Positions 16,852 to 28,913 of a DNA stretch of 64,000 nt are shown piece after piece; within the stretch, counting starts at the first letter, position 1; each line of letters opens with the position of its first letter. Both the position numbers and the translations under genes were made by a program. This DNA is from Rhizobiaceae bacterium (GTDB lineage: Bacteria; Pseudomonadota; Alphaproteobacteria; Rhizobiales; Rhizobiaceae). A model generated the notes under the pieces. The model was not told where the DNA came from. It searched no databases and worked only from the letters and a program-made list of their open reading frames with translations. Location of the stretch: positions 558,001-622,000 of the forward strand of contig JAILWO010000003.1 of NCBI GenBank assembly GCA_025698895.1, written 5' to 3'.

Positions 16852-18744
16852 GTGGCCAAGACCGTTTCCGGCGATTCCGGCTCGACATTCCAGACGCTTG
16901 TCAACCTGTGGCCCTATATGTGGCCCTCCGACCGGCCCGACCTGAAGAGCAGGGTGGCCTGGGCGACGGTGTTTCTCGTCGTCGCCAAGCTGGTTCTGAT
17001 GCTGGTTCCCTATTTCTTCAAATGGGCGACCGACGCGCTCGATGGCGAACTGGCGCCGGCCGCCTGGATTCCGGGCATCCTGATCGCGCCGGTCATGCTC
17101 GTTCTGGCCTATAACGCGGTGCGCGTCGTGCAGCTTGGCTTCAACCAGTTGCGCGACGCACTGTTCGCCAAGGTGGCGCAGTACGCCGTGCGGCAGCTTG
17201 GCTACAAGACCTTCGTGCACATGCACGACCTGTCTCTGCGTTTCCATCTGGAGCGGCGCACCGGGGGCCTGTCGCGGATCATCGAGCGCGGCGTGAAGGG
17301 CATCGAGGCGATCGTGCGCTTCACGATCCTCAATACGCTCCCGACCTTCCTCGAATTTGCCCTGACGGCGGTCATTTTCGCCGTCGCCTATGGCTGGATC
17401 TATGTAGCCATCATCGCGGTGACAGTGTGGCTCTACACATGGTTCACGGTCAAGGCGAGCGACTGGCGTATCGCCATTCGCCGCGAGATGAACGATTCCG
17501 ACACCGAGGCCAACACCAAGGCCATCGACTCGCTGCTGAACTTCGAGACCGTGAAGTATTTCGGCAACGAGACCATGGAGGCCGAGCGCTTCGACCGCTC
17601 GATGGCGCGCTACGAGGAGGCCGCGACCAAGACCTGGACCTCGCTCGGCTGGCTCAATTTCGGCCAGGGCCTGATCTTCGGGCTGGGCATGGCGGCGGCG
17701 ATGGGACTGTCCGCCTGGGAAGTCACGCGCGGCACGCAGACGCTCGGCGATTTCGTCTTCATCAACGCCATGCTCATGCAGCTTTCGATCCCGCTGAATT
17801 TCATCGGCTTCATCTATCGCGAGATCAGGCAGGGCCTGACCGACATCGAGAACATGTTCGAGCTTCTCGACGTCAAGCCGGAGGTCGAGGATCGCGCCCA
17901 CGCAAAGCCGCTGGTCGTGTCCGAAGGACGCGTGACCTTCGAGGATGTCCATTTCGCCTACGACCCGAACCGCGCCATCCTGAAAGGCATTTCCTTCGAG
18001 ATACCGGCCGGCAAGACCGTCGCGGTCGTCGGGCCTTCCGGAGCCGGAAAATCCACGATCTCGCGGCTGATGTTCCGTTTCTACGACATCCAGTCGGGCG
18101 CGATCAGGATCGACGGCCAGGACGTGCGCGATGTCACGCAGGAAAGCCTGCGCGCCGCCATCGGCATGGTCCCGCAGGATACCGTGCTGTTTAACGACAC
18201 GATCCGCTACAATATCCGCTACGGTCGCCCGTCCGCCAGCGACGAGGAGGTGCGCCGTGCCGCCGACCTGGCCCAGATCAGCGACTTCATCGACACCTTG
18301 CCCGACGGCATGAAGACGATGGTGGGCGAGCGCGGGCTCAAGCTGTCGGGTGGCGAGAAGCAGCGCGTGGCGATCGCGCGCACCATCCTCAAGGCGCCGC
18401 CCATCCTGATCCTCGACGAGGCGACCTCCGCGCTGGACAGCCATACCGAAAGCGAGATCCAGGCCGCGCTGGACCTCGTCTCCAGGGGGCGCACCACGCT
18501 GGTGATCGCGCATCGCCTGTCCACGGTCATCAGCGCCGACGAGATCATCGTGTTGCGGGACGGCCAGATCGCCGAGCGCGGCAATCACGGCGACCTGCTG
18601 GCGCAAGGCGGCCTCTATGCGGCCATGTGGGACCGCCAGCGCGAGGCGAGCGAGGCCGAGGAGCGGCTGCGGATCGCGCGCGAGACCGATGAGCTCGGCG
18701 TCGTGGTCCGCAGGCGCACGCCGGAGATCGCCGAGGGAACGTGA
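16852..18744 (+). CDS. Atm1-type (ABCB7-like) ABC exporter
   Basis: 630 aa half-transporter with the membrane domain first and the ATPase second, starting at a GTG (16852). Walker [10 protein letters not shown] is at 394-402, the signature LSGGEKQR at 498-505 and Walker B ILILDEA at 518-524. The N-terminal region (LWPYMWPSDRPDLKSRV) and the EANTKAIDSLLNFETVKYF segment are characteristic of the Atm1/HMT1 group. Relatives export glutathione-metal or glutathione-persulfide species; the Novosphingobium Atm1 is linked to metal detoxification. The preceding ArsR gene with a Cys cluster fits such a role. Substrate is inferred, not shown. Confidence 0.93.
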   Translation: MAKTVSGDSGSTFQTLVNLWPYMWPSDRPDLKSRVAWATVFLVVAKLVLMLVPYFFKWATDALDGELAPAAWIPGILIAPVMLVLAYNAVRVVQLGFNQLRDALFAKVAQYAVRQLGYKTFVHMHDLSLRFHLERRTGGLSRIIERGVKGIEAIVRFTILNTLPTFLEFALTAVIFAVAYGWIYVAIIAVTVWLYTWFTVKASDWRIAIRREMNDSDTEANTKAIDSLLNFETVKYFGNETMEAERFDRSMARYEEAATKTWTSLGWLNFGQGLIFGLGMAAAMGLSAWEVTRGTQTLGDFVFINAMLMQLSIPLNFIGFIYREIRQGLTDIENMFELLDVKPEVEDRAHAKPLVVSEGRVTFEDVHFAYDPNRAILKGISFEIPAGKTVAVVGPSGAGKSTISRLMFRFYDIQSGAIRIDGQDVRDVTQESLRAAIGMVPQDTVLFNDTIRYNIRYGRPSASDEEVRRAADLAQISDFIDTLPDGMKTMVGERGLKLSGGEKQRVAIARTILKAPPILILDEATSALDSHTESEIQAALDLVSRGRTTLVIAHRLSTVISADEIIVLRDGQIAERGNHGDLLAQGGLYAAMWDRQREASEAEERLRIARETDELGVVVRRRTPEIAEGT

Positions 18745-23168: not shown

Positions 23169-23789
23169 TCAGTTCGCCGCGAAACAGTAGAACAGGCCGT
23201 CACCGCCCGTGCCTTGCAGAGCTTCCTGGCTGCAGCCTCGCGAGGGATGTGACGAATTCCAGGACTTGGCCGCATCCGAATCGTCGAGGCCCATGCGGTC
23301 ATGGTGCCCGACCATGGCGCTGCCATCGCCGGACGCGGTCCAGTTTTCGCAGGTCGCCTCGTGCGCGGTGCCGTCGGGATTGGATCCGGTGAGGATGTCA
23401 TGGCGGTTGGGGCTGTCGCCGCGTCCGTTGACCGTCTGGCCGTTCTCGTCGAGCGCCGTTTCCTTCGAGATCGCGTTGGCGTCGGAGTGCAGCGACGCGA
23501 CGTCGTCGGCGATCCTGTCGCTATTGGCGTTGTGCCAGGGCCCCGAGCCGATCCGGTCGCGCGCATTCTCCTCGGACGTGGACAGGTAGGCCCGCCAGGT
23601 CTTGCCGGTGACGCCAGCCGCTTCGGCAAGTGCGGTGCAATGCGCGTCGGCGCCTTCAAGCCCGCCGAGGTCCGCGCCGCTGCCAGGCCCGGCGCTGGTA
23701 ACGAAAAAACTCATGGAATTGTCCTGGGCATGCGCGGCGAATGCGATGCCTCCCGCCAGGGCGATTGCGAGCGTGAGACGGCTTTTCAT
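23169..23789 (-). CDS. secreted lectin-like (C-type-lectin-fold) protein
   Basis: 206 aa. A signal peptide (residues 1-21, ending AHA) precedes a mature domain of about 185 residues. Four cysteines (51, 147, 186, 202) and the motifs TWRAYLST, GPWHNA, CENWTAS, VGHHDRMG and WNSSHPSRGCS...GGDGLFYCFA match proteins I know as lectin or endostatin-like C-type-lectin folds in Rhizobiales. Two disulfides are likely. Ligand unknown. Its ribosome-binding site lies in the 3' arm of a 20-bp hairpin (23796-23845), so translation may be regulated. The NCS1 transporter lies 87 bases upstream on the same strand. Confidence 0.8.
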   Translation of the reverse strand: MKSRLTLAIALAGGIAFAAHAQDNSMSFFVTSAGPGSGADLGGLEGADAHCTALAEAAGVTGKTWRAYLSTSEENARDRIGSGPWHNANSDRIADDVASLHSDANAISKETALDENGQTVNGRGDSPNRHDILTGSNPDGTAHEATCENWTASGDGSAMVGHHDRMGLDDSDAAKSWNSSHPSRGCSQEALQGTGGDGLFYCFAAN

Positions 23790-23795
23790 GGCGTT

Positions 23796-23845
23796 CCTCC
23801 CTCGTCAGGCCTCCCGCAATGGCAGGGTAGGCCCGACGAGGGAGG
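23796..23845 (-). promoter_or_regulatory. 20-bp RNA hairpin sequestering the lectin gene Shine-Dalgarno
   Basis: On the minus strand the leader reads CCTCCCTCGTC (from 23845-23835), GGGCCT, A, CCC, a nine-base loop, then GGG, AGGCCT and GACGAGGGAGG (ending at 23796). Eleven, six and three base pairs form, with one G-U and one bulged A. The terminal GGGAGG is the Shine-Dalgarno, six bases before the ATG at 23789. No U-run follows, so it is not a standard terminator. Confidence 0.75.
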
Positions 23846-23876
23846 TAACTCCACTCAATTACGCGTGTAGCCGCGG

Positions 23877-25328
23877 CTATGCTGTCGCGACGACGGGATG
23901 GTTCCTCATCATCGCCACATGCAGGATCGCGCCGAGCGCTGCTCCTATTAGCCAGCCGAAGCCGGCCAGCGCCGAAAGGGCCGGGAGCCAGACGGTCGCG
24001 ATCGAAAACACGGCCGCGATCGCGAAGGCGATCAGCGCCTTCAGGTTCCAGCCGCTGTCGTAGTAGTAGGCGCCACCGGCGTCCGACGAGAACAGCTGCT
24101 GGATGTCGAGGCGCTGCTTGCGCACGAGATAGTAGTCGGCGACCAGTATGCCGTAGAGAGGCGCCAGCACCGCGCCCAGCGTGTCGACGAAGCCGGTGAT
24201 CCCGATCTGGCTGATGAACGACACCCAGAGCGCGCCGATGAAGAAGGCGACGACAGCAGTGATGACGCCGCCCGTTTTGGCCGAAATCTTCGACGGAGCC
24301 AGATTCGCAAGGTCGTATGCGGGTGGGATGAAGTTGGCCACGAGGTTGATGCCGACGGTTGCTGCGAAAAAGGTTGCCGCCGCGACGATCGTCAGCAGCA
24401 GGCTGTCGACTCTCTCCACGATCTCGGCCGGATTCGTCAGTCTCTCGCCGAACACGACCACCGTTCCCGCCGTCACGAACAGTGCGATCAGCGAGAACAC
24501 GGCGATGTTTCCGGGGAGGCCGACGAGATTGCCTAGCCGCATCTGGCCCTCGTCCTTCACGAAGCGCGAGAAGTCGCCGAAATTGATTATGACGGCGGCA
24601 AAGTAGGCGACCATCGTGCCGACGATCGCGATGAAGGCGGTGACCGACGTGCCCTCATAATCGCCGGTGCCGGAGAATATCTCGCCGACCGCGGCCAGCA
24701 GTCCGCCGCCCGCCTGCCACCAGAGCGCGATCATCAGCACGAGCATGACGACATACACCATGGGGCCGGCCCAGTTGAGGAAGCGTGCGATCGTGTCGAT
24801 GCCGCGCATGAACAGGGCCACCTGGAACACGCACACGATGAAATAGGAAAGCCAGCCGATCGCCGTCATGCCGAGGAAAGTGGCGCTGTCGGCGCCGATA
24901 CCGAACAACGAATTGAGCAGCAAGGCCACGGCCGTCGAGGCGAAATAGGTCTGCACGCCGTACCAGAAGATGGCCACGATGCCGCGCACCATCGCTGGGA
25001 AATTCGCCCCGCGCACGCCCATCGCCGCACGGGCCATCACGGGGTAGGGGATTCCGTAGCGCACGCTCGGCCGGCCGGACAGATTGACAAGCACCATCAC
25101 GATGAAGCCGGCCAGGATGATCGCGGCCAGAACCGCCCAGCCGTTGAGGCCGTAGGTCAGGAACAGCGACGCCGCCAGCGTGTAGCCAAACAGGCTTTGA
25201 ACGTCGTTGGCCCAGACATTGAAGATCTCGAACCAGCCCCATTTGCGTTTCCCGGGCGGCAGCGGCGCCAGGTCCTCGTTATAGAGGGTTGGATCGATGG
25301 TGCGGATCTGAAAGTCCTGGTCGCTCAT
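23877..25328 (-). CDS. NCS1 family nucleobase:cation symporter
   Basis: 483 aa with about twelve membrane segments. NCS1 proteins import purines, pyrimidines, allantoin, hydantoins or thiamine with a cation. The motifs NEDLAPLPPGKRKWGWF and FNVWANDVQSLFGYTLAASL mark the family, followed by GRPSVRYGIPYPVMARA and YFASTAVALLLNSLFG in helices 2-4. The ATG at 25328 is preceded by GGGGA. The substrate cannot be assigned, and no catabolic enzymes are adjacent. The gene may be transcribed together with the downstream lectin-like gene. Confidence 0.92.
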   Translation of the reverse strand: MSDQDFQIRTIDPTLYNEDLAPLPPGKRKWGWFEIFNVWANDVQSLFGYTLAASLFLTYGLNGWAVLAAIILAGFIVMVLVNLSGRPSVRYGIPYPVMARAAMGVRGANFPAMVRGIVAIFWYGVQTYFASTAVALLLNSLFGIGADSATFLGMTAIGWLSYFIVCVFQVALFMRGIDTIARFLNWAGPMVYVVMLVLMIALWWQAGGGLLAAVGEIFSGTGDYEGTSVTAFIAIVGTMVAYFAAVIINFGDFSRFVKDEGQMRLGNLVGLPGNIAVFSLIALFVTAGTVVVFGERLTNPAEIVERVDSLLLTIVAAATFFAATVGINLVANFIPPAYDLANLAPSKISAKTGGVITAVVAFFIGALWVSFISQIGITGFVDTLGAVLAPLYGILVADYYLVRKQRLDIQQLFSSDAGGAYYYDSGWNLKALIAFAIAAVFSIATVWLPALSALAGFGWLIGAALGAILHVAMMRNHPVVATA

Positions 25329-25486
25329 TGCCGTCCCCTTTTCGGCGAATATTGCAGTGCAAGGCCTGCGCCTTCGCAACTGCGAAGTCAAACGACTGTT
25401 GATAAGGAATCACAACTAAATTTCGGCAAGCATCGGCGCGGTCCGACTGTTTGTCGACCACCGATTGCCAAGAAAACAAGCAAGGT

Positions 25487-25509
25487 GATTATCGAAAAGT
25501 CAGATAATC
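25487..25509. promoter_or_regulatory. 7-bp inverted repeat upstream of the NCS1 gene (candidate operator)
   Basis: GATTATC (25487-25493) and GATAATC (25503-25509) are perfect inverted copies separated by 9 bases. The pair lies between the NCS1 start (25328) and the SDR stop (25533), in an AT-rich patch. It could bind a regulator, or be part of the 3' structure of the SDR transcript. No regulator gene is adjacent. Confidence 0.4.
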
Positions 25510-25532
25510 GACAGCCAGGGAGGGAACCGAGC

Positions 25533-26279
25533 CTAGGCGGGCCGCCGCCAGGCCGTGAAGCGTTCGCTTTCCACGTTCCAGATCAGTCCGGTCTCCGTGA
25601 GGTCCGGTGACGCGAGCGGCAGGATCTTCGCCGCGACCTCGGAAGGATGCGGTACGTCGTCGGGGTTCTCGCCAGGCATGGCCTGGGCGCGCATGGCCGT
25701 GCGCGCGATGCCGGGATTGACCAGGTTGACCCTGAGAGGTGTGTTCTTGGTCTCGTCGGCCCAGGATCGCGTCATGGCCTCGACCGCGGCCTTGGATGCC
25801 GCGTATGGCCCCCAATAGGCGCGGGCCGAATGGGCCGCGCCGGATGACATGACGACGGCGCGCCCCGCGTCCGACTTCCGCAGCAGCGGGTCGACGGATC
25901 GGATCAGCCGCCAGGTCGACGTCACGTTGATCGTCATGGTGCGCTCGAACACCCTGGCCTCGACATGGGCGAGCGGGGCGATGACGCCGAGCACCCCAGC
26001 ATTGGCCACGAGTATGTCGAGTTTGCCCCAACGTTCGTGGATCGAGCCGCCCAGCCGGTCGATGCCGGCCATGTCGGCCAGGTCGAGCGGCACCAGCGTT
26101 GCCGCGCCGCCGGCCGCCTTGATCTCGTCGTCGAGCTCCTCCAGCCCGCCCACGGTACGCGCCACCGCGATCACATGCGCGCCCGCCGCGGCGATCTGCT
26201 TGGCCAGATGATAGCCAATGCCGCGCGAGGCGCCGGTCACCAGCGCGGTTCGGCCGGAAAGGTCAGGAGCAGCGGTCAT
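25533..26279 (-). CDS. SDR family NAD(P)-dependent oxidoreductase
   Basis: 248 aa from the ATG at 26279. Classical short-chain dehydrogenase features: TGASRGIG (15-22) for the cofactor, NAG (93-95), Ser145/146, and YAASK with Tyr159 and Lys163 as the catalytic pair. The NPGIARTAM segment follows. Substrate unknown. I recall an SDR gene next to purF in many Rhizobiales; here it is separated from purF by DoxX and a secreted hypothetical, so it may have drifted from that block. Confidence 0.93.
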   Translation of the reverse strand: MTAAPDLSGRTALVTGASRGIGYHLAKQIAAAGAHVIAVARTVGGLEELDDEIKAAGGAATLVPLDLADMAGIDRLGGSIHERWGKLDILVANAGVLGVIAPLAHVEARVFERTMTINVTSTWRLIRSVDPLLRKSDAGRAVVMSSGAAHSARAYWGPYAASKAAVEAMTRSWADETKNTPLRVNLVNPGIARTAMRAQAMPGENPDDVPHPSEVAAKILPLASPDLTETGLIWNVESERFTAWRRPA

Positions 26280-26342
26280 GGAAAGCCTCGCAGTGGAACC
26301 TGCGCATGCCATAGACCGGATGCCGGACGAGCGAAACCCTGC

Positions 26343-26852
26343 TCAGGAAGGCGGTCTGAAACTGTCTTCCAGCCGCTCGACCACAGGATCGTATCGCGGC
26401 TTTTCGGCTTCGGGGTAGCTGATGGCGAAGACCGCGTAGCGGGAGCGGTCGGGGCTCATCATCAGCTTTAGATAGAAGACGAGGTCGGCGCCGCGGCCGC
26501 TCTCGAGATCGTAGTAGCCGGAAATCACCAGCCATGAAGCGCCCGAGCGCCGATAGGTGATCTCCCGTATCCATTCCGACCGTTCCAGCGACGCGGCCAC
26601 TTCCGACAGGGGAAGACGGTCGTGGTTCTCCTCGGCATAGACCGAAAGCTGGACCGGACCGGCCGGGTCTCGAAATACCAGCCGCCCGTCCTGCCCGTCC
26701 TCGGGTTCCAGAAGATCGGTCGGGATGTCGATCCTGTAGCCGTATTCGGGGTCGGAGTAGGTCTGCCATTGCGGGGTCTGCGCAGCGACTCCGACGGTGG
26801 TCATGAGCAGGGCCGCGGCGGCGGCGAGCGTGGTGGGCATGGAGGAAATCAT
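26343..26852 (-). CDS. secreted hypothetical protein
   Basis: 169 aa from the ATG at 26852. A signal peptide (residues 1-24, MISSMPTTLAAAAALLMTTV then GVAAQ) precedes a mature domain beginning PQWQTYSDPEYGYRIDIP. This 'x-Y-xD-xx-YGYRIDIP' start is common in exported proteins with a PsbP-like or similar mixed alpha/beta fold, but I do not name a family. The C-terminal half contains LVISGYYDLESGRGADLVFYLK. It lies between the SDR gene and the divergent DoxX gene. Function unknown. Confidence 0.65.
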   Translation of the reverse strand: MISSMPTTLAAAAALLMTTVGVAAQTPQWQTYSDPEYGYRIDIPTDLLEPEDGQDGRLVFRDPAGPVQLSVYAEENHDRLPLSEVAASLERSEWIREITYRRSGASWLVISGYYDLESGRGADLVFYLKLMMSPDRSRYAVFAISYPEAEKPRYDPVVERLEDSFRPPS

Positions 26853-27038
26853 CGGGCTGAAACGCGCCCGGGCGCGAAGGGTTTCACAAGCGTCGTCCGG
26901 CCTTGCTGTCACCGGCGGAGAGGCTTCGCGCGCAAGCCGTGCGATTCTTTCATGGCCGGGTCGGAAACCGGCCGTGACGAACGTTCCTTGGTTGACAGGC
27001 CCCTCCAGGGGCCGCTCGGGATCAGGGGAGATCACAGC

Positions 27039-27437
27039 ATGAGAACGATCGCGATACTTGCCGGCCGGCTGATCTTTGCCGGCGCTTTCGCCATGGCGGC
27101 CTTCTTCAAGTTCACCGGCATGGGCATGACCGCCGAACAGATCGCGGGCGCCGGCTTTCCATTTCCCATGCTGCTGGCCTGGCTGGCCGCGATCTTCGAG
27201 ACGGGTCTCGTCCTGGCCTTCCTGACCGGCGCCTTCTTCACGGAAGCCGCGTTACTGGCGGGGGCCTATGTGATCTTCCTGGCCTTTGCATTTCACGGCC
27301 CGGACAAATGGGAGGCGTGGTACGAGTTCGGCTTCTTCGTCGACCATTTCACGTTTCTGGCCGGCCTGCTCTTCGCGGCCGCCCACGGCCCTGGCGAGCG
27401 CCTCGCGGTGCGTCTGGGCTATCTGGCAAGGACGTGA
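27039..27437 (+). CDS. DoxX family membrane protein
   Basis: 132 aa with four predicted membrane helices. The N-terminal GRLIFAGAFAMAAFFKFTGM and the central FETGLVLAFLTG match the DoxX family. These small membrane proteins are often linked to thiosulfate oxidation or oxidative-stress responses, but the individual role is unknown. GGGGAG lies 10 bases upstream of the ATG. It is divergent from the secreted hypothetical gene and convergent with purF, leaving only 9 bases between the stops. Confidence 0.9.
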   Translation: MRTIAILAGRLIFAGAFAMAAFFKFTGMGMTAEQIAGAGFPFPMLLAWLAAIFETGLVLAFLTGAFFTEAALLAGAYVIFLAFAFHGPDKWEAWYEFGFFVDHFTFLAGLLFAAAHGPGERLAVRLGYLART

Positions 27438-27446
27438 CGTCCCAGA

Positions 27447-28913
27447 CTATCCCCTGGTCGCCAGCAGCGAAAGCTGGCGAACATTGTCGGCGCCCTCATG
27501 GTCGAGCAGACGCGTGGGATAGTCCTTGGTGAAGCAGGCATCGCAGAATTGCGGCTGCTCCATGTTGCGCGCGGCGTGGCCCACGGCGCGGTACAGCCCG
27601 TCGATCGACAGGAAGGTGAGCGAATCGACGCGGATGAACTCCGCCATCTCCTCCACCGACATGCGGCTGGCCAGCAGCTTGGCGGTTTCCGGCGTGTCGA
27701 CGCCGTAGAAACAGGACGCCCGCGTCGGTGGTGAGGCGATGCGCATATGGACCTCGCGCGCGCCGGCGTCGCGAACCATCTGCACGATCTTCTGGCTCGT
27801 CGTGCCGCGCACGATCGAATCGTCGACCAGCACCACGCGCTTGCCTTCGATCATCTGCCTGTTGGCGTTGTGCTTGAGCTTCACGCCCATGTGCCGGATC
27901 GAATCGGTCGGCTGGATGAAGGTGCGGCCGACATAGTGATTGCGGATGATGCCGAGCTCGAAGGGCAGGCCGGCCTCCTGCGCGAAGCCGATGGCGGCCG
28001 GCGTGCCCGAATCGGGGACCGGCACGACGAGGTCGGCATCTACCGGGCTTTCGCGCGCCAGCTCCACGCCGATCTGCTTCCTGACGCCATAGACGTTGCG
28101 CCCTTCGACCGAGGAATCGGGCCGGGCAAAGTAGACATATTCGAAGATGCAGAAGCGCGAGGGCCGCGGTTCGAAGGGAAAGAAGCTTTCAATACCCTTG
28201 GACGTGACGACGACCATTTCGCCGGGCTTCAGATCACGCACGAAACGCGCGCCAATGATGTCGAGCGCGCATGTCTCGGACGCCAGGATCCAGGCTCCGT
28301 CGAGATCGCCGAGCACGAGCGGGCGGATGCCGAGCGGATCGCGGCATCCGATCATCTTCTTGGACGACAGGGCCACCAGCGAGAACGCCCCCTCGATCTG
28401 GCTCACGGCATTGATGAAGCGCGCGTTGGTGTCGCGTTCCTTCGAGGTGGCGATCAGATGCAGGATCGTCTCGGTGTCGGACGTGGAGGAGAAGATCGCC
28501 CCTTCCTTCTGCAGGCGGCGCTGGACGGTCATCGCATTGGTGATATTGCCGTTGTGCGCCACCGCGATGCCGCCTTCGGAAAGCTCGGCGAAGAGTGGCT
28601 GGACGTTGCGCAGGCCCGAGCCGCCGGTCGTCGCATAGCGGGTGTGGCCTATGGCGCGGCTGCCCTTCAGACTGTCGATCACGGCCTGCTTGGTGAAGTT
28701 GTCGCCGATCAGCCCGATATGCCGCTCGACATGGAACTGCGTGCCGTCGAAGGAGACGATGCCGGCGGCTTCCTGGCCGCGATGCTGAAGGGCATGAAGC
28801 CCCAGCGTCACGATCGCGGCCGCGTCCTGGCGTCCGAAGATGCCGAACACGCCGCACTCGTCGTGGAAGTGATCGTCGGCCTCGTCGGCCATCATGTCGG
28901 TGGCAATGGTCAT
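27447..28913 (-). CDS. purF: amidophosphoribosyltransferase
   Basis: 488 aa. PurF makes 5-phosphoribosylamine from PRPP and glutamine, the first committed step of purine synthesis. The catalytic nucleophile is Cys20 in DECGVFGIFG, so 19 residues of propeptide would be removed. The N-terminal Ntn-hydrolase domain contains the RHG(Q)EAAG-like LQHRGQEAAGI motif. The PRPP-binding loop VVLVDDSIVRGTTS lies in the second half. It follows cvpA on the same strand, the classic cvpA-purF pairing, but a strong hairpin sits between them. Confidence 0.97.
   Translation of the reverse strand: MTIATDMMADEADDHFHDECGVFGIFGRQDAAAIVTLGLHALQHRGQEAAGIVSFDGTQFHVERHIGLIGDNFTKQAVIDSLKGSRAIGHTRYATTGGSGLRNVQPLFAELSEGGIAVAHNGNITNAMTVQRRLQKEGAIFSSTSDTETILHLIATSKERDTNARFINAVSQIEGAFSLVALSSKKMIGCRDPLGIRPLVLGDLDGAWILASETCALDIIGARFVRDLKPGEMVVVTSKGIESFFPFEPRPSRFCIFEYVYFARPDSSVEGRNVYGVRKQIGVELARESPVDADLVVPVPDSGTPAAIGFAQEAGLPFELGIIRNHYVGRTFIQPTDSIRHMGVKLKHNANRQMIEGKRVVLVDDSIVRGTTSQKIVQMVRDAGAREVHMRIASPPTRASCFYGVDTPETAKLLASRMSVEEMAEFIRVDSLTFLSIDGLYRAVGHAARNMEQPQFCDACFTKDYPTRLLDHEGADNVRQLSLLATRG

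Follow-up and report, generated by a model that had tools for sequence, protein, structure and literature searches.

A hairpin of 22 pairs closes over the Shine-Dalgarno sequence of a gene for a secreted lectin-like protein in a Rhizobiaceae bacterium, within the 64,000-nucleotide stretch of DNA analysed here (the window), and we suggest, tentatively and with a probability of roughly 0.43, that it acts as a translational insulator against read-through from the NCS1-family permease gene lying in front, with RNA from the lectin-like gene's own promoter remaining open. RNA entering from the NCS1 gene would carry both arms of the hairpin, fold, and shut the Shine-Dalgarno, while RNA from the predicted promoter, starting at about position 23817, would contain the 3′ arm alone and be translated normally. 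The translational block would probably affect just those transcripts that extend across the junction from the transporter gene, and the lectin-like gene would thereby be ruled by its own promoter despite its neighbor; the hairpin could in addition serve the NCS1 message as a 3′-terminal hairpin. The features of the locus (Table 1) are computed or predicted; activity of the promoter, read-through of NCS1 transcription and selection of the hairpin for insulation are inferred.

Table 1. Features of the lectin-like gene, its leader and its upstream neighbors (window coordinates).
Feature	Position	Strand	Basis or remark
Secreted lectin-like gene, 206 aa	23172..23789	minus	Weak DUF1554/endostatin-like match below Pfam cut-offs
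GGGAGG Shine-Dalgarno	23801..23796	minus	End of hairpin 3′ arm, all bases paired
Hairpin, 22 pairs	23845..23796	minus	Folding and pairing check
Hairpin 5′ arm	23845..23822	minus	
Hairpin loop (CATT)	23821..23818	minus	
Hairpin 3′ arm	23817..23796	minus	
Predicted transcription start, G, +/-2	23817	minus	Inferred from -10-like element
TACCCT, counterpart of relatives' TAnnnT (-10-like)	23829..23824	minus	Alignment and matrix
ACACG..TTGA block, upstream element of predicted own promoter	23849..23868	minus	Between NCS1 gene and hairpin
NCS1-family permease gene	23877..25328	minus	Pfam PF02133; possible source of read-through RNA
SDR oxidoreductase gene	25533..26312	minus	Usual upstream neighbor in relatives

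The hairpin covering the Shine-Dalgarno is real and far beyond chance expectation. Its pairs fall into blocks of 11, 6, 3 and 2, with one G-U, and two bases (A 23828 and U 23824) are bulged from the 5′ arm; a first-pass annotation, made from the sequence alone, had recognized the fold correctly but counted 20 pairs and one bulge. It was right in placing GGGAGG at the end of the 3′ arm, six bases ahead of the ATG (23789..23787), as the only ribosome-binding site of the gene. Computational folding of the leader, which it had put forward as a check, gives -82.7 kcal/mol for 161 nt (z -5.86), and none of 200 shuffles is equally stable. Only two 60-base segments fold better than the hairpin's in 464 kb of the source genome (the window and 20 other stretches of 20 kb each, scanned on the plus strand in steps of 6 bases), and among 14 inverted repeats its score is tied third, two of the other 13 being followed by five or more T. 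No U-run lies beside the hairpin on either strand (AACGCC comes next on the minus strand and TAACTCC on the plus strand) and a terminator scan lists nothing at its position, in agreement with the earlier view that it is not a normal terminator; a standard intrinsic terminator, in which a GC-rich hairpin precedes a U-run, is thus rejected. A genome search recovered the exact pattern once and no second copy, the matches being the hairpin itself and its own other arm, and the lack of further copies rules out a dispersed palindromic (REP-like) repeat. No Rfam family reaches its gathering score anywhere in the window, and the pairing is not kept in relatives either (see below), so that a conserved cis-regulatory RNA (riboswitch, leader or thermometer) finds no support.

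The modelled accessibility of the Shine-Dalgarno differs strongly with the length of the transcript. Opening GGGAGG costs 15.1-17.4 kcal/mol in the model when the 5′ end lies between -60 and -200 relative to the ATG, and 5.2-6.3 kcal/mol when it lies between -25 and -29; for GGAGG alone, 5′ ends at -60 and -75 give 14.3-15.8 kcal/mol, and those between -25 and -30 give 1.9-4.2. The probability that the Shine-Dalgarno is unpaired is 0.000-0.002 for four modelled 5′ ends from -56 to -80, and 0.30-0.54 for 17 from -50 to -20. Among 54 control genes in the loci of relatives, all folded from -75, opening GGAGG costs 4.6 on average (s.d. 2.9, maximum 11.8), and the cost for the window's own-promoter RNA is inside this control range. 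In 126 genes of the source genome the mean is 3.7 (s.d. 2.7) and one gene exceeds the window's 14.2, although the starts of this set were picked by rule and some are doubtful, the one exception (L107:15974) having a TTG start and the window's gene being missing from the top of the ranking, apparently displaced by an overlapping frame. The predicted distinction between read-through RNA and own-promoter RNA does not depend on the exact position of the start. The first-pass annotation had proposed a start closed until something opens it, and for RNA starting upstream of about 23845 the fold prediction agrees; what does not stand is that the start is always closed, as the promoter signature described next puts the predicted transcription start inside the hairpin.

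Alignment of the relatives' leaders reveals a common block, ACACG..TTGAT, followed by TAnnnT, and this signature is retained before the lectin-like gene where the upstream neighbors differ. The window's counterpart of TAnnnT falls within the 5′ arm of the hairpin. Both bulges of that arm coincide with bases of TACCCT, its A and its final T, which are two of the three conserved bases of TAnnnT. With the usual spacing from -10 element to start, transcription is predicted to begin at about 23817, where the 3′ arm begins, and mRNA from the gene's own promoter would therefore be without the 5′ arm. A start within the hairpin, which the earlier annotation had named as a result that would speak against its interpretation, is thus what the promoter signature predicts.

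Statistical support for this signature is of two kinds. The TA lies 37-39 bases after the start of the block in 20 of 22 leaders, whereas control offsets within these leaders give 5.1%; the count is neither blind nor independent, since the leaders were selected for the ACACG block after the alignment had been viewed, several are closely related, and the anchor of one (L031) was shifted two bases by hand; two leaders among the nearer relatives (L011 and L027) have no TA at that offset. A two-block matrix trained without the window gives a best window score of 17.8 bits, with ACACG at 23868 and the -10-like element at TACCCT, and reaches a maximum of 14.5 bits at 797,520 positions over 400 kb of the source genome. 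The window's upstream block itself scores 11.3 bits, the weakest of all, against 14.7-27.3 in the training set, and no standard -35 element is seen in the window's leader, so the promoter could be diverged or decayed. A standard sigma-70 spacing from TTGATT was dropped by eye, there being 22-23 bases to the TA, and an EcfG promoter was rejected for the window, whose leader does not contain GGA[AT]N-N16/17-CGTT. That pattern, composed after the leaders had been viewed and expected at a mean of 0.2 in base shuffles, does occur in 40 of 79 relatives' leaders, mainly Mesorhizobium, among L037-L090, where it lies some 75 to 36 bases ahead of the ATG; it is close to GGAAC-N16-CGTT, the EcfG motif reported for Rhizobium etli (PMC3892343). 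Where the EcfG-like motif is present, the lectin-like gene may be part of the general stress response.

The lectin-like protein weakly resembles collagen XVIII endostatin, and its match to DUF1554 (E 1.5e-5) stays below threshold, at 25.3 bits where 27.5 are required. The NCS1 gene is co-directional with it, and in the terminator scan no U-run terminator was seen between the two. To judge how usual this arrangement is we used the best 80 of 465 loci encoding relatives of the lectin-like protein, with further loci added from other genomes. An SDR orthologue lies upstream of the lectin-like gene in 56 of the best 80 loci, being the nearest of five reference genes in 49 of those 56, and in the remaining 7 a CitMHS/Na-sulphate-type permease gene lies between the two. 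A purF-like gene, the SDR gene and the lectin-like gene thus form a recurring order in the window (23172-28913) and in relatives, with an insert between the last two that is the NCS1 gene in the window and the CitMHS-type permease gene in L028, L029, L030, L036, L044, L061 and L085. An NCS1 gene was seen upstream of the lectin-like gene in none of the best 80 of 465 relatives, four of which (L015, L016, L022 and L032) have less than 600 bases of upstream flank, and none was seen in another 27 loci with flanks of 1.5 kb, many of these being the same species. When 394 genomes of the family were sampled, 11, the window's included, had a close NCS1 homologue (E <=1e-150). Because NCS1 was not seen upstream in the sampled relatives, the pairing of the two genes is so far known only from the source genome, and the suggestion of the first-pass annotation that the hairpin links the lectin to transporter expression finds no support in this distribution.

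The hairpin, too, is known from one genome. The best 60-base fold in the leaders of the best 80 of 465 relatives averages -20.6 kcal/mol, with a lowest value of -37.0, against -47.3 in the window. When the window's pairs are projected onto 15 aligned relatives, 121 of 268 cells are paired (45.1%), which is near chance: the shuffled mean is 43.3%, 83 of 500 shuffles are as high, and slid versions give 36-43%. There are 32 further pair types, a number equalled or exceeded in 45 of 500 shuffles. With the window row included the figures appear better: 49.3% of cells are paired, with 0 of 500 shuffles as high, further pair types number 39 (as many in 1 of 500), and the covariation score is matched in 9 of 500. 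We discount these figures because the window pairs 22 of 22 by construction, and conservation of the hairpin is rejected once that row is left out. Arms whose pairing is not conserved in relatives, the other result that the annotation had listed as contrary to its proposal, are therefore what the alignment contains.

Closing of the Shine-Dalgarno by some other structure could still have been a trait of the family, and a raw comparison of 104 leaders with 54 controls, the window being left out, gives p 0.0004. This difference is gone after merging similar leaders: the duplex z is then -0.32 against -0.06 in controls (31 and 39 clusters, p 0.29), and an opening z >=2 is found in 4 of 31 leader clusters and 3 of 39 control clusters. 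The sample comprised 105 usable leaders of 107 (window included) and 54 usable control leaders of 65. Folds with z < -2 are present in 27 of 90 distinct leaders (window included; mean -1.07 without it), a count over leaders alone, to which many related Mesorhizobium leaders contribute. As the merged family is no different from control genes, we regard the hairpin of the window as specific to its lineage. A search for closer relatives gave the source genome only at the level of the genus, and extending it to the genera of two near relatives yielded no others. In other genomes the 3′ arm has two short matches (L112 and L113), both at the starts of different genes that lack the hairpin.

The closest relative sampled (L116), whose lectin-like protein is 84% identical, has a Shine-Dalgarno-closing structure that differs in its letters from the window's and is similar in plan. 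In its leader TAGCCT sits at the apex of a hairpin of 10 pairs, and an upstream UUCCUCCU pairs with GGGAGGAA; the fold z is -3.68 and the opening cost 10.5 (z 2.7), the duplex energy (z -0.17) being within chance. Many Mesorhizobium leaders have CCUCCGG/CCGGAGG together with an inner hairpin. In 22 Mesorhizobium-type loci (alignment A2) this takes the form of a two-part Shine-Dalgarno-closing hairpin, CCUCCGG/CCGGAGG plus UUCGAAUGU/ACAUUCGAA, with 90.1% of cells paired against 27-52% for slid versions and one pair compensated in three sequences. We also note two copies of a REP-like inverted repeat, CCCTCTCCCCG..CGGGGAGAGGG, at L094:16558-16586 and 17080-17108.

The insulator reading is supported by the promoter signature, the difference in Shine-Dalgarno opening, the coincidence of the bulges with -10 bases, the co-directional NCS1 gene with no U-run terminator seen in between, and the similar plan in L116. 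Against it stand the upstream block being the weakest of its set, the non-blind choice of leaders, the finding that caging of the Shine-Dalgarno is no commoner than in controls, and the duplex z of L116. Its main rival, although we think it unlikely, is that the hairpin serves as a 3′ element of the NCS1 message, be it an unusual U-less terminator, a stop for 3′-exonucleases or an RNase III site, a role that may coexist with insulation. The hairpin is 31 bases past the NCS1 stop codon (23879..23877) with a long, GC-rich stem, and we surveyed the ends of 10 NCS1 homologues outside the window (L145-L154) with a hairpin search unguarded by shuffles, one of them (L150) giving no stop. Counted from the first base of the stop codon, L145 (12 pairs) and L148 (13 pairs) have compact GC-rich hairpins without a T-run at a distance of 5-7 bases, and L151 has one further on; L153 has a GC-rich hairpin followed by ATTTTTG, L147 and L149 have a terminator-like GGCCGGC..GCCGGCC followed by T-rich sequence, and L146 has a short hairpin around the stop itself. 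The U-less hairpins behind some of these homologues favor a 3′-end role, but the window's arms are unlike those hairpins and far longer, its flanks offer no U-run on either strand, and it covers two elements of the following gene, the Shine-Dalgarno and the -10-like element, a placement not required of an NCS1 terminator. The hairpins in L145, L148 and L151 are perhaps U-less terminators. It is also improbable that the hairpin is an accidental quasi-palindrome, one arm having been copied by a template-switch or similar mutation in a poorly constrained stretch ahead of the start codon, with silencing of read-through RNA as a side effect and no selected role. The pairing is near-perfect, as in a young repeat, it occurs in one genome and is not kept in relatives, and template switching has been reported to create RNA hairpins (PMC8794818); on the other side, the hairpin sits on both the Shine-Dalgarno and the -10-like element, its interruptions coincide with conserved -10 bases, and the closest sampled relative has a Shine-Dalgarno-closing structure of other sequence.

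We regard as quite unlikely the interpretation of the first-pass annotation itself, namely a cis-acting switch in which all transcripts are closed and a chaperone, a helicase, RNase III or upstream translation opens them, linking the gene to NCS1. The Shine-Dalgarno is indeed closed in long RNA in the model, but opening it would require 15-17 kcal/mol, the promoter signature lies inside the hairpin, and NCS1 is no conserved partner of the gene, being upstream in none of the best 80 of 465 relatives. A ribosome at a stop codon covers about ten bases beyond it, so one ending at the NCS1 stop would fall short of the hairpin across the intervening 31 bases. An out-of-phase GTG frame at 23854 does cross the hairpin and stop on the lectin ATG, and a small frame acting on intergenic stem-loops has a precedent in Salmonella mgtQ-mgtB (PMC8092293), but the GTG frame has no Shine-Dalgarno, and of 107 leaders (window included), 22 have a frame ending at that place, in no case with a Shine-Dalgarno; opening by an upstream small frame is unlikely. 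An operator acting at the level of DNA, with the inverted repeat as a repressor site, has very little to recommend it: the repeat spans the predicted -10 element and start, but its 11-base half-sites are 28 bases apart, a separation wide for one dimer, there is no second genomic copy, and the repeat is not conserved.

The type of device that the insulator reading invokes is known, while its place is unusual and the reading rests on a predicted start. In IS10 and IS50, RNA from outside folds and closes the transposase start, which stays open in transcripts of the element's own promoter; these are mobile elements, and there is no transposase at the window's locus. The closest likeness is with gene e (lysozyme) of phage T4, where long early transcripts are reported to hide the start region by structure and late-promoter transcripts lacking the 5′ portion are well translated, and where phages related to T4 have a promoter within the region encoding the 5′ strand (PMC3014915). 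In the model the window's Shine-Dalgarno is, as in this type of leader, closed in long RNA and free in the shorter RNA, and the -10-like element located by alignment and matrix would place the start beyond the 5′ strand. For gene e the 5′ ends have been mapped and the effect is 100-fold, the promoters being phage late promoters and the leaders having similar counterparts in related phages, whereas the window offers a bacterial chromosome, a predicted start and one genome. The ribosome-binding sites of T4 I-TevI, I-TevII, I-TevIII and segB and of phage Aeh1 mobE are likewise described as closed in RNA from upstream promoters and free when the transcript lacks the 5′ part (PMC2988022), but these are homing endonuclease genes under phage timing, and in the window the likely reason is the upstream neighbor gene. 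For a bacterial chromosomal counterpart a narrow search of the open-access literature, from which we claim no absence, found only looser parallels. Intergenic RNA stem-loops in Salmonella mgtC-mgtQ-mgtB control translation of the second gene (PMC8092293), which by that account a small frame promotes, whereas the window has no frame with a Shine-Dalgarno and has a promoter signature inside the hairpin. The read-through transcript of IsrK in the Salmonella Gifsy-1 prophage is translationally inactive (PMC4825925), but is described as activated in trans by a small RNA and as arising by read-through of a terminator within its own unit.

A broader version of the insulator reading, which we consider doubtful, is that a bacterial chromosomal gene is shielded from its upstream neighbor by a hairpin whose 5′ arm contains the gene's own -10 element, with the promoter bases kept as bulges, and that locks of a different build may have arisen at this position in other lineages (L116, Mesorhizobium). 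If the shielding is true, a promoter and a translational lock would be written in the same 50 bases. It would also carry a more general caution, that a Shine-Dalgarno-closing hairpin inferred from DNA may be missing from the real mRNA of the gene. Were the insulator reading to hold, the logic of T4 gene e would be at work in a bacterial chromosome, suggesting a route by which a gene could retain its own control after another gene arrives in front of it.
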